38,166 nt of DNA from contig JAJONO010000066.1 in NCBI GenBank assembly GCA_021323535.1, forward strand, positions 1 through 38,166. Direction: 5' to 3'. Below, one piece after another: positions 29,405-33,666 of the stretch. This DNA comes from Bacteroidota bacterium (GTDB lineage Bacteria > Bacteroidota > Bacteroidia > B-17B0 > Aurantibacillaceae). Both the position numbers and the translations under genes were made by a program. The notes below the pieces were generated by a model that had not been told where the DNA came from, ran no database searches, and worked only from the letters and a program-made list of their open reading frames with translations. Each line of letters starts with the position of its first letter. The stretch's first letter is position 1.

Positions 29405-31531
29405 TTAGAGTCTGATACCAATAATGCACACATCGTCTACCTGTTCTAGCGTCCCTTTCCAGGTGTCGAAGGCTGAAGAGAATATCTCCTTCTGTTCAGA
29501 ACAGGGTTTTGCATAATTGGCCAGTAACAATTCATTGAGTTGTTTATACTTAAATTTTTTACCTTTCTCACCACCGAACTGGTCGGCAAAGCCATCGGTG
29601 TACAGGTATAGTACATCCCCTTTTTTAAATTCAATGTTATGTAAAGTAAAAGGTTCTGTTCTTTCTCCCTGTCCCACTGGCATTTTATCAACGCCCAGTT
29701 CAATTATTTTTCCTTCCGAAATTAATACGGGAGAGTTATAAGCGGCTGAGTAAGTTATTTTTTTATTTGTAGTTCCTTCTTTTTCAAAACACACGAGTAT
29801 TCCGTCAAATCCGTCTTTTTGTCCGTCCTTGCTCACACTTCCTATTAATCGTTTCCTGGCGTAGTCTAGGATCTGGTTTGTTTCAGTAATTTTTTTTTCA
29901 TTAATAGCCTCACTTAAAAAGCCAATGTTCAATAAACTCATAAATGCTCCCGGAACACCATGGCCTGTGGAGTCGCATACGGCGAGGTAAAAGAGTTTAT
30001 GGTCTATAGTCGATAGTTTATAGCCAGGCTGGCCCTGAAGCGAACTCCGTTCTGTTTCAGTGGCCCAATAGAAATCCCCGCTAACAATATCTTTCGGTTT
30101 AAAGAACACGAAATGTTCGGGGAGATGCTGGTCAAGAAATTCATCGCTGGCAATAATCGTATTCTGAATTCGTTTTGCATAGCGGATGGAGTCCAGAACT
30201 TCTTTCCTCTGATCTTCCACAATTTCCTTTTGTTTTTCAATGATCTCTTTTTGTTGCTTCGTGATTTTAAATCGTTTAAAGAGAAAAAAAGAAAAAACAA
30301 TAACAACAAGAAGAATAACAATAACGGCTACGATCACAAAGTTCTGTCTTCTTTTCTCTGAAGAAGCAATGGCTTTATCCGCATCTCTTTTAATATTGTT
30401 TTCCTTCTCCTTTTGTTTTAGCTCGTAATTTTTCTGAATGTCGTTGAGCGATGAAACGTTATTTAGTTTTGATAAACTATCGTTCAGCTGATTATATTTT
30501 GTGGAGCTCTCATAAGCTTCTTTGTATTTTCCCTGGCCCGCCTGTGCAATGGATAAGCCTTTATAAGCCAGAACCTGATCATCGAGAAACTCATTTTCAA
30601 TACAAATGCGTAATTGTTCTTTAAGCATGGCCTCTGCTTTTGCATAATCCTGTTTGCGGTTATACAAATCGCCAAGATTTCCCATTGGTAACAACATTCC
30701 CGAAACATCGCCGATGGTTTTGTAGAGATTGAATGACTGATCGAAATATTTCCAGGCTTCTTCAAAGTTTCCTTTGTCGAGATAAAGTGTACCAATGTTA
30801 TTGCCTGCCATGGCCATGTTACGTTTGTCTTCAATTCGTTTAGAGATATTGTAGCTCTTCACATAGTAGTCCATAGCTTTGTAAGTATCATTGTTGCTAC
30901 CGTAAACTTTGCCAATGTTGTTGTAGCAAAGCGCCATGCCTTTTTCATCTTTTATTTTTTTACAAATGCTAAATGATTTGAAATAATATTTTAGCGCGTT
31001 CTTCCAGTCCTTTAGATCATCATAGATAAGACCTATATTCAGAAGGCTGGACGACATTCCATCAAGATTGTTAAGTTGCTCATCGAGTTCGTAGGATAAT
31101 AAAAAATAATTCAACGCGGTGGATAATTCGCCTTTGTCCCAGTAAACCAAACCAATGTTATTGTAGAGAACAGAATAATCCGAAGGTGTTCTGCAATATT
31201 TTAAACCTTTCAGATAAAGCTTAAGCGCTTCGTTGTATCTGGACATATTCCAGTTCGAAACTCCAAGACTACTGTAAATACCAACTATTCCAGAACTGTC
31301 GCCCGCTTTCCCGGCTATTTTTAGCGCCGTGTTCGCGTAGCTGATAGCCGTATCGAAACCAGAAGTCATATTGTAATAGTAGGCCAGGTTCCTAAGGTTT
31401 TTTATCCTCGCGGAATCAGTTTTAGCTTCCGAAATAATTTTTTTGATGGAATCAACTGTATGGTTGTTCTGGGAATAGCCGGACAGGAAAACGAAAAAGA
31501 AACACAGATGAAATATTTTTCCAGGTTTCAT
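29405..31531 (-). CDS. TPR-sensor SpoIIE-type serine phosphatase B
   Basis: A 708-residue paralogue of phosphatase A. Start ATG at 31531 gives a signal peptide (MKPGKIFHLCFFFVFLSGYS) and a 4-base ATGA overlap with gene C; the earlier start at 31552 is inside gene C. Six or seven tetratricopeptide repeats follow (YNNIGLVYWDKGELSTALNY, GNNIGTLYLDKGNFEEAWKY), then a coiled coil, one membrane helix (VIVAVIVILLVVIVFSFFLF), a second coiled coil and the phosphatase. Motifs: PKDIVSGDFYW, CDSTGHGVPGAFMS, DGFDGILVCF, LYTDGFADQFGG and DDVCIIGIRL. After FYWATE it carries the insert ERSSLQGQPGYKLSTIDH, absent from A. Confidence 0.9.
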   Translation of the reverse strand: MKPGKIFHLCFFFVFLSGYSQNNHTVDSIKKIISEAKTDSARIKNLRNLAYYYNMTSGFDTAISYANTALKIAGKAGDSSGIVGIYSSLGVSNWNMSRYNEALKLYLKGLKYCRTPSDYSVLYNNIGLVYWDKGELSTALNYFLLSYELDEQLNNLDGMSSSLLNIGLIYDDLKDWKNALKYYFKSFSICKKIKDEKGMALCYNNIGKVYGSNNDTYKAMDYYVKSYNISKRIEDKRNMAMAGNNIGTLYLDKGNFEEAWKYFDQSFNLYKTIGDVSGMLLPMGNLGDLYNRKQDYAKAEAMLKEQLRICIENEFLDDQVLAYKGLSIAQAGQGKYKEAYESSTKYNQLNDSLSKLNNVSSLNDIQKNYELKQKEKENNIKRDADKAIASSEKRRQNFVIVAVIVILLVVIVFSFFLFKRFKITKQQKEIIEKQKEIVEDQRKEVLDSIRYAKRIQNTIIASDEFLDQHLPEHFVFFKPKDIVSGDFYWATETERSSLQGQPGYKLSTIDHKLFYLAVCDSTGHGVPGAFMSLLNIGFLSEAINEKKITETNQILDYARKRLIGSVSKDGQKDGFDGILVCFEKEGTTNKKITYSAAYNSPVLISEGKIIELGVDKMPVGQGERTEPFTLHNIEFKKGDVLYLYTDGFADQFGGEKGKKFKYKQLNELLLANYAKPCSEQKEIFSSAFDTWKGTLEQVDDVCIIGIRL
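29973..30091. repeat. Near-identical DNA block shared by phosphatases B and C (copy in B)
   Basis: Of 119 bases, 116 match the block at 32093-32211; differences are at 30024, 30055 and 30061. It includes the sequence for the extra 17 residues (29999-30049) and an imperfect palindrome GGTCTATA...TATAGCC on the plus strand. The neighbouring coding sequence of the two paralogues is clearly more diverged. Confidence 0.9.
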
Positions 31532-33666
31532 ATTTTTATTCCAATTACGCAAACGTCGTCAACCTGTTCAAGGCTGCCTTTCCAATCTTCAAAACGGTTT
31601 TCGAGTTTGGTTTTTAATTCAGGAAGCTCTTCTTTACTGTTTTCAAGAAGGAGATTGTCGAGTTGTTTGGATTTGAATTTTTTTCCTTTTGGTCCGCCAA
31701 ACTGATCGGCATAACCATCGGTATAAAGGAAAAGAACATCTCCTTTTTTTACATCGATAGAAAAGAGTTTGAACGGTTCGGTTTTCTCTCCTTTACCAAC
31801 AGGCATTTTATCAGCTCCGAGTTCAATAATTTTTCCATCCGAAATAAGTACAGGTGCGTTATTGGCCGAGGCATAATCCATTTTATAATTATCACCTTGT
31901 TTTTCTATCCTGAGTAAAATTCCGTCGAAACCGTCTTGTTGTCCTTCTTTACTGATGCTTTCAATTAAACGTTCTCTTACGTGATCAAGAATTTTATTTG
32001 GTTCGTAAATATTTTTCTCTTTAATAGCCTCACTTAAAAAACCAATATTGAGTAAACTCATAAATGCTCCGGGAACACCATGGCCGGTGGAATCGCATAC
32101 GGCGAGGTAAAAGAGTTTATGGTCTATAGTCGATAGTTTATAGTCAGGCTGGCCCTGAAGCGAACTCCGTTCTGCTTCAGCGGCCCAATAGAAATCCCCG
32201 CTAACAATATCCTTTGGTTTAAAAAGGACAAAATGTTCGGGCAGGTTTTGTTTCAGAAATTCCTCGTGCGCCAATAGTGTGTACTGGATACGCTTTGCAT
32301 AATTGATGCTATCTACGATCTCTTTGTTTTTTTCTTCAACAATTTCTTTTTGCTCCTGTAATTCCATGGTGCGTTCTTTTACTTTTTGTTCAAGAACAAC
32401 GTTTTGTTCACGTACCAGTTTTTCGTTTTGCTGCGCGGCTTCCAGGGCCTCTTCCTGCGCTATCTCTTTATCTTTTTTATAATTACTGATCTTATCTCCA
32501 ATAGCCATGGATAAGAGAACAGCTTCGATTGCCGTTCCTATTTCGACAGCGTTATGTGTAAAATTATTGAACGGTATCAATTGAAGATCGGCGCTGATAT
32601 ACGTAAATAAACCTGCGAGGTAGAATGTCCAGCCTATTAAGTAAAACCTCGCTGGCCTGTATCCTTTTCTAAGTACTTTAATCCCTATAAGGAATGAGAT
32701 AACAGAAAACACGAGGCCAAACAGCTGCACAAGCATAATGGCTTCACGTTTTAAACCCGCAAAATCACAAATAAGAACAGAAATAAAAAGCACCAGCATT
32801 CCAATAGTTATTCTGTAACCAGTTTTATAATTGTTCTTCATATCAAGGAACACAATCGCGAACAGGCAAGAGGTGCAACCAAGGCAGAGTGGAACCCATG
32901 CCGGATGTTTATGAAAAATAAACTGGGCCCAATCCGGTAAATGGATCGAGTAACCAAGGGTGAAACTGATGAAGAAACCATTACTGATCACATAGGCCAT
33001 GTAAAAGAGATACACTTTGTCCTTAACCGAAAAATAAATGAACAGGTTGTAAATGATAAGCATAAACAGTAAACCGAAAAATCCTCCGTGAAGAATATCG
33101 TTTACATGATAATTCTCCATAAGCTCATCCAGTTTCCCTATTGAGAGATAAGCCTGTAATGGAACATCGGCCGAAAGTTTTACGAAAAAAGTAATTGTCG
33201 AATCTTTAGGAATGTCTAATGGAAATAAAGGATGCCGTACTTTAATATCTCTGTTCCTGAGTAAGACATGGAAACCTGATTTTGTTTCTTTAAAAGTGCC
33301 GTCAGGTTTAGGAAGATAAATATTGAAATGATCGGCGCTTGCATTTGTGTTTTCGAGATACCAGTTATTAAAATCCGATTGGTTGGTGACTTTTATTTTA
33401 ATCCAGAAAACCGACTTAGTAAGATTAAAATTGGGAATGTCGTTCGTACTTTTTCTGAAAGCAGTGTCAAATTCCGGTTTCGATATTTCTTCAAATGTTT
33501 TTGTGGTTGTTTTGTCCTCGAAAATAGCAATGCTTTGTCCGATCGGCTTTATTTCGTAGTTATTGGTAAGAACAATTGTTTCCTGGCCGAATGCAGCCAG
33601 CGAAAAAAACAACAATACGAACGATAGATATTTTATAAAATGTATTTTAATTGAGCTGCCTCGCAT
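31528..33666 (-). CDS. 7TMR-DISM SpoIIE-type serine phosphatase C
   Basis: A 712-residue sensor-phosphatase. Signal peptide 1-28. An extracytoplasmic 7TMR-DISM jelly-roll domain (~35-175: VFWIKIKVTNQSDFNNWYLE) is followed by seven membrane helices (~190-392), a coiled coil (~395-450) and the SpoIIE phosphatase. Motifs: PKDIVSGDFYW, CDSTGHGVPGAFMS, DGFDGILLRI, LYTDGYADQFGG and DDVCVIGIKI. DISM domains bind small ligands, often carbohydrates, so this protein may sense outside compounds. It also has the 17-residue insert. Start: ATG at 33666, 20 bases inside the end of the NmrA-like gene; an upstream TTG (33675) is possible. The stop overlaps gene B by 4 bases. Confidence 0.9.
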   Translation of the reverse strand: MRGSSIKIHFIKYLSFVLLFFSLAAFGQETIVLTNNYEIKPIGQSIAIFEDKTTTKTFEEISKPEFDTAFRKSTNDIPNFNLTKSVFWIKIKVTNQSDFNNWYLENTNASADHFNIYLPKPDGTFKETKSGFHVLLRNRDIKVRHPLFPLDIPKDSTITFFVKLSADVPLQAYLSIGKLDELMENYHVNDILHGGFFGLLFMLIIYNLFIYFSVKDKVYLFYMAYVISNGFFISFTLGYSIHLPDWAQFIFHKHPAWVPLCLGCTSCLFAIVFLDMKNNYKTGYRITIGMLVLFISVLICDFAGLKREAIMLVQLFGLVFSVISFLIGIKVLRKGYRPARFYLIGWTFYLAGLFTYISADLQLIPFNNFTHNAVEIGTAIEAVLLSMAIGDKISNYKKDKEIAQEEALEAAQQNEKLVREQNVVLEQKVKERTMELQEQKEIVEEKNKEIVDSINYAKRIQYTLLAHEEFLKQNLPEHFVLFKPKDIVSGDFYWAAEAERSSLQGQPDYKLSTIDHKLFYLAVCDSTGHGVPGAFMSLLNIGFLSEAIKEKNIYEPNKILDHVRERLIESISKEGQQDGFDGILLRIEKQGDNYKMDYASANNAPVLISDGKIIELGADKMPVGKGEKTEPFKLFSIDVKKGDVLFLYTDGYADQFGGPKGKKFKSKQLDNLLLENSKEELPELKTKLENRFEDWKGSLEQVDDVCVIGIKI
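32093..32211. repeat. Near-identical DNA block shared by phosphatases B and C (copy in C)
   Basis: Partner of the block at 29973-30091, 2120 bases away in the same orientation and reading frame. The 17-residue insert is encoded at 32119-32169. Confidence 0.9.

Follow-up and report, generated by a model that had tools for sequence, protein, structure and literature searches.

Heptamer-repeat DNA probably captured in frame at a phosphatase hairpin turn and passed among paralogues in a Bacteroidota genome

Two neighboring genes for predicted SpoIIE-type PP2C phosphatases in a Bacteroidota bacterium (GenBank assembly GCA_021323535.1, contig JAJONO010000066.1) carry a 51-bp in-frame insert, 26 bases of which fall in tandem copies of a degenerate seven-base word, ACYATHR. 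Here we describe this insert within a window of 38,166 nucleotides, the whole stretch of DNA analyzed, and follow its heptamers through the rest of the genome and through related genomes. Its history is probably that of a heptamer array which, along with 25 bp from outside it, came to lie in frame at a hairpin turn of the SpoIIE domain and was then spread by gene conversion. Our confidence in capture followed by conversion is lowered because the array makes up half of the insert, and because two of the four copies miss p <= 0.05 in a test for periodicity at lag 7.

The window contains three adjacent SpoIIE-type phosphatase genes, all on the minus strand. Phosphatase B (P0001, 29405-31552) joins TPR repeats (Pfam TPR_12) to a SpoIIE/PP2C domain (SpoIIE E 1.3e-15), and phosphatase C (P0002, 31528-33675) joins a 7TMR-DISM sensor (7TMR-DISM_7TM, 7TMR-DISMED2) to the same kind of domain (SpoIIE E 8.4e-20), while the third paralogue (P0003, 27218-29323; TPR and SpoIIE by Pfam and translation) has a 15-residue loop without the insert. 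Both B and C are predicted to be SpoIIE-type PP2C phosphatases; in B, the Pfam SpoIIE domain (PF07228), the conserved aspartates and the PP2C fold are all present. By translation and loop comparison, the inserts occupy minus-strand positions 29999-30049 in B (RSSLQGQPGYKLSTIDH) and 32119-32169 in C (RSSLQGQPDYKLSTIDH), between the GDFYW and DSTGHG motifs, and they add in both proteins the 17 residues RSSLQGQP[G/D]YKLSTIDH that had been read from the DNA in the original prediction. The loop from W to TGHG has 32 residues in B and C and 15 in P0003, the latter counted on the printed translation; the earlier counts of 31 and 14 are replaced, and the difference in length is the same. The surrounding 119-base block (29973-30091 in B, 32093-32211 in C, minus strand) lies exactly where it had been placed, with three mismatches, at 30024, 30055 and 30061.

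The insert had been described mainly as a palindrome, a description that the sequence does not bear out. Tandem Repeats Finder detects instead period-7 arrays at 29994-30023 and 32114-32145, with low scores of 32 and 36. Pattern matches place these arrays, on the sense strand of each gene (minus), at 29992-30024 in B (C4:29992-30017 and 29999-30024) and at 32112-32144 in C (C4:32112-32137 and 32119-32144), with 26 of the 33 bases of each array inside the insert. At up to three mismatches, the 26-mer TATGGTCTATAGTCGATAGTTTATAG occurs twice in the window and not once in 100 shuffles. The remaining 25 bp, GC-rich and outside the array (30025-30049 and 32145-32169), gave no significant copies in the genome outside phosphatases; a dispersed origin of this half was rejected, the placeable significant matches being phosphatases (E above 0.01 excluded).

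As modeled by AlphaFold2, the B domain (281 residues, mean pLDDT 86.5) has a fold that matches PP2C domains (best SiaA, 6k4e, E 1e-17). The insert spans residues 68-84 of this model and straddles the turn of a beta hairpin between GDFYW and DSTGHG, with strands at residues 59-69 and 82-95 and a mean pLDDT of 67 over insert residues 71-80. D59 and D93, which do not vary among the 35 sequences compared, sit at the far ends of the hairpin strands and would bind metal, as such aspartates do in PP2C enzymes. The expectation that the insert would be near the metal-binding loops finds no support in this model, in which it occupies the hairpin tip and would be separated from D59 and D93 by some ten residues of strand. 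The extra peptide is presumably tolerated, leaving the active site unchanged.

The heptamer array is one of a family specific to this genome, whose other members lie between genes. Four-unit ACTATNN arrays with at most two mismatches gave 89 matches in the bacterium's own genome and none for the reversed pattern; with at most one mismatch there were 35 matches in this genome and only one in 24 same-genus genomes combined. The unit consensus, A-C-(T/C)-A-T-(A/C/T)-(A/G), derives from 173 units in 45 arms outside the phosphatases. The 89 matches represent 41 sites, of which the SpoIIE loops are the only clearly intragenic ones. All site contexts were viewed, giving 40 distinct cores because the second window copy and contig C49 have one and the same core: 37 lie outside ORFs of 100 residues or just overlap an ORF end, and three lie inside an ORF, comprising two SpoIIE loops and locus L102. 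The last was rejected as an intragenic array, since a downstream ATG is the likely start and the array likely lies 5' of the gene. Several other heptamer words besides ACYATHR are present in the genome.

One reading in the original prediction was a small mobile palindrome that inserted a single time and then spread, and some of the data fit such an element: an in-frame insert is found in several genes, two inverted arms are present at some intergenic arrays (C1:100977-101054, C110:7860-7947, C123:42084-42150), and certain loops of relatives fold well (L237, L255). The dispersed relatives of the insert are heptamer arrays, however, and all 311 of the 311 26-mers from the 45 arms outside the phosphatases are distinct. 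Because no two of these arms have a 26-mer in common, no array is a fresh copy of another, and the palindrome was rejected as the main reading on this ground. By eye, the phosphatase copies are also single-armed, and no constant array ends were seen in the printed contexts. In-frame insertion in unrelated genes was found, and a defined inverted-repeat unit in near-identical dispersed copies was not; we regard a mobile palindrome as improbable.

The orientation of the arms raises a different possibility. With genes called by simple ORF rules, 29 of the 45 arms point toward a same-strand start codon, 22 of these within 32 nt (raw counts), 14 face the 3' end of a gene on the opposite strand, and two face neither within 150 nt. 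The arrays could be selected sites for a nucleic-acid-binding regulator that reads a 7-base register, also in the phosphatase, isoleucyl-tRNA synthetase (IleRS) and E2 mRNAs. We know of no binding protein for the arrays. The arms directed at start codons argue for such sites, as does the translational regulation that MacGregor 2015 (PMC4679880) proposes for TAACTGA repeats; the 16 remaining arms, and words that differ between arrays and between genomes, argue against them, and on balance we consider a regulator rather unlikely. As a separate observation, outward-pointing heptamer arms flank a terminator-like hairpin at a convergent gene pair in L364:1466-1575 (by eye).

Returning to capture and conversion, the own genome (G000; 5.31 Mb, 141 contigs) offers a large family of potential recipients. 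A SpoIIE-domain search yielded 97 match rows, and the number of genes is slightly lower because a few are split into two rows; ten of the rows are on contig C25. Among 77 distinct loops, 42 have 15-17 residues and 35 have 20-40. Four SpoIIE genes, and no others, carry near copies of the 119-bp block: the window pair and one gene each on contigs C49 and C112; the B block is 97% identical to the C49 copy and 90% identical to the C112 copy, and a fifth phosphatase, on C13, has only the first half of the insert in common. We counted the use of the same codon among codons for identical residues, in the block and in the rest of the domain. Between B and C the codon is the same at 19/19 positions of the block outside the insert and 16/16 in the insert, against 74/153 elsewhere (Fisher p 6e-6), so the block does stand out from the rest of the domain as had been claimed. 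The corresponding values for B and C49 are 18/20, 16/16 and 70/142 (p 5e-4); C and C49 give p 0.006, and pairs with C112 are weaker, with p 0.015 to 0.09. The codon test supports the proposed spread by gene conversion, which has recently copied the loop-containing block among three paralogues at least (B, C and the C49 gene).

Trees built without the loop require four changes to account for the four copies, which group as a single clade in 0% of the 200 bootstrap trees. One clade is nevertheless not rejected by the AU test (p 0.155), and one old insertion followed by duplication is accordingly not rejected for these four; the loops of family L as one clade are rejected (p 0.013). Two loop families of the own genome, S and L, have 8/8 and 4/4 of their matches in phosphatases. 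One common origin for all long loops was rejected, S and L having no places outside phosphatases at up to three mismatches and most long loops (61 of 89) giving p above 0.05 at lag 7. In another SpoIIE gene, a heptamer array lies elsewhere in the same domain (L455:16377-16427).

Several relatives have other 7-base repeats in the same SpoIIE loop. Orthologues with the same 17 residues, named in the original prediction as counter-evidence, were not found among the long loops of relatives: of 100 loops from 80 related loci, 80 are 15-16 and 20 are 19-39 residues long, and RSSLQGQP[G/D]YKLSTIDH is absent from these 20, as it is from the 37 loops of at least 19 residues among 58 loops of loci L246-L368, which are mostly same-genus. 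The heptamer CAGTNNN gave no matches in the own genome and 134 match rows, which overlap within arrays, in 10 of the 24 other same-genus genomes, compared with 14 rows in six genomes for the reversed control. By eye, CAGTNNN is accompanied by AACTGCC in the L255, L278 and L287 loops and stands alone in L246, the L237 loop combines GTGATGAG with CATCACTC, and some heptamer loops are built as inverted arms. The loops of L208, L218, L227, L237, L246, L255 and L278 are each 7-periodic with other heptamers (p 0.0025).

With identical DNA counted once, lag-7 identity over 36 loop clusters is 0.312, compared with 0.260 in control windows of the same genes (z 5.4); lag 14 reaches z 2.8, and no other lag between 2 and 24 goes beyond |z| 2.8. 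Because a lag of 7 is no multiple of a codon, the periodic signal resides in the DNA. Tested singly, 28 of 89 loops reach p <= 0.05 at lag 7, as against 3 of 108 control windows, and five draws of one random loop per cluster gave 6-10 of 36. For the insert itself the signal is weak, with p 0.015 for C and for C49, 0.06 for B and 0.10 for C112. With 61 of the 89 long loops above p 0.05, long loops are not all captured repeats, and this same figure, which includes families L and K, a YKAGTN loop and B, speaks for an ordinary variable loop, an inherited long specificity loop that looks repetitive by chance. The recurrence of some long loops in apparent orthologues (L252, L253, L259, L260) also speaks for it. 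Against it stand the 89 array matches with none for the reversed pattern, the lag-7 signal across loops and in IleRS, and the near-identical synonymous codons of the block; the genome-wide counts already disfavor it, and we hold it to be very improbable. RNA folding was also considered as a general loop feature and rejected, being hardly above control at z <= -1.5 (6-8 of 36 cluster picks, 14 of 108 control windows); single loops that do fold well are L237 (z -4.6 and -4.8) and L255 (z -3.2).

Heptamer DNA in frame is not limited to phosphatases, and occurs in the unrelated genes for SpoIIE proteins, IleRS, pyruvate dehydrogenase E2 and an MqnD-type enzyme. At 38 loci of relatives, a non-random choice among the 134 CAGTNNN match rows, 10 of 41 distinct arms lie in ORFs of at least 120 residues: four in SpoIIE loops, four in two E2 genes of 2-oxoacid dehydrogenases, which we take to be pyruvate dehydrogenase, one in IleRS and one in a protein without Pfam assignment. 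The E2 linkers consist partly of CAGTNNN heptamers in two species (L347:940-1034, minus strand; L343:1002-1026). In the own genome, four in-frame GTTGAAC units lie in a loop of an MqnD-type menaquinone enzyme (PF02621; L470:1953-2010). The inserted residues correspond to gaps in aligned solved relatives (8c8w, 2czl, 1zbm): 10 residues of the MqnD-type loop are gaps in 2czl, and the IleRS query has 14 extra residues at its loop relative to 8c8w.

For IleRS, the search covered 23 of 25 genomes, 21 of which gave a readable loop ahead of LAWTTTPW. The lag-7 identity of this loop is 0.426, against 0.258 (z 15), with further signal at lag 14 (z 8.6) and lag 21 (z 5.8). Lags 6 and 8, however, also reach z 5.1 and z 3.0, and the z values overstate independence because the 21 genomes are related. 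The heptamer words of this loop (L389-L411) differ between species of the genus; those assigned, by eye, are CAGTNNN in G007 and G021, CAATNNN in G012, CAACATN in G019, AAAGTTN in G010 and G022, and AACTGCC in G011.

A wider view comes from 1.04 Mb of sequence sampled from four genomes at hand-chosen, not random, places, where 7-periodic DNA lies mainly between genes. At a score of 18 of 28, there are outside ORFs 46 arrays at lag 7, 29 at lag 14 and 8-19 at lags 4, 5, 8, 10, 11 and 13; the lag-7 excess stands out in G000 (23) and G019 (12), but it is slight in G010 (6) and practically absent in G007 (5). Inside ORFs, lag 7 gives 14 arrays against 5-12 at other lags, and a general invasion of genes was rejected, this moderate-score count not being clearly above the others. 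At a score of 21, there are 16 arrays outside and six inside ORFs at lag 7, three and one at lag 14, and 0-1 outside and none inside at other lags, from which it follows that strong arrays are 7-periodic and that few are inside genes; two of the six inside ORFs are A/T-rich low complexity.

A course of events consistent with capture and conversion would have heptamer arrays landing occasionally in coding sequence, where most would be lost, with in-frame, stop-free arrays in a loop, linker or tail surviving. Gene conversion could then spread the survivors through a large paralogue family. In the present case, heptamer DNA typical of this genome was probably caught in a tolerant phosphatase hairpin turn and passed to paralogues, and captured heptamers of this kind show one way in which enzyme loops gain length. 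A bolder scheme, to which we attach little probability, is that each species has its own heptamer vocabulary and a process that keeps writing 7-base arrays, never identical, at gene boundaries and in tolerated enzyme loops, with SpoIIE and IleRS as recurrent landing sites; if it were true, a repeat-writing system would also be making new protein segments. Since the words differ between close relatives, a single IleRS or phosphatase loop may record the repeat of its lineage. Heptamer loops therefore offer a tractable route to the origin of the repeats and to possible binding partners. No description of heptamer repeats inside SpoIIE or IleRS loops was recognized among the listed titles and abstract openings of open-licence PMC papers.

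Tandem heptanucleotides dispersed in the genome are familiar from the STRR repeats of cyanobacteria, with words and hosts other than those here. The closest known systems are TAACTGA heptamer repeats and Rickettsia palindromic elements. TAACTGA direct repeats occur in Beggiatoaceae, Cyanobacteria and five Bacteroidetes, the largest position class ends 1 nt before a start codon, and intragenic sets mostly sit at protein peripheries or within hypothetical proteins, according to MacGregor 2015 (PMC4679880). The arrays described here resemble them as 7-base direct repeats in tandem, present in some genomes only, mostly intergenic and sometimes inside ORFs, and TAACTGA read in the register AACTGAT also has an ACT core. 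Many TAACTGA repeats point at start codons, as 29/45 arms may do here by raw counts, with 14/45 facing an opposite gene's 3' end. Unlike TAACTGA, the word here is a degenerate one that varies between species of one genus, and its heptamers enter loops inside the catalytic domains of conserved enzymes, whereas the heptamer repeats of these sources are described as mostly intergenic. Rickettsia palindromic elements, palindromic units of about 150 bp (PMC10969869), likewise place repeat DNA in frame in unrelated genes; the arrays here differ from them in being short heptamers without recognizable unit ends.
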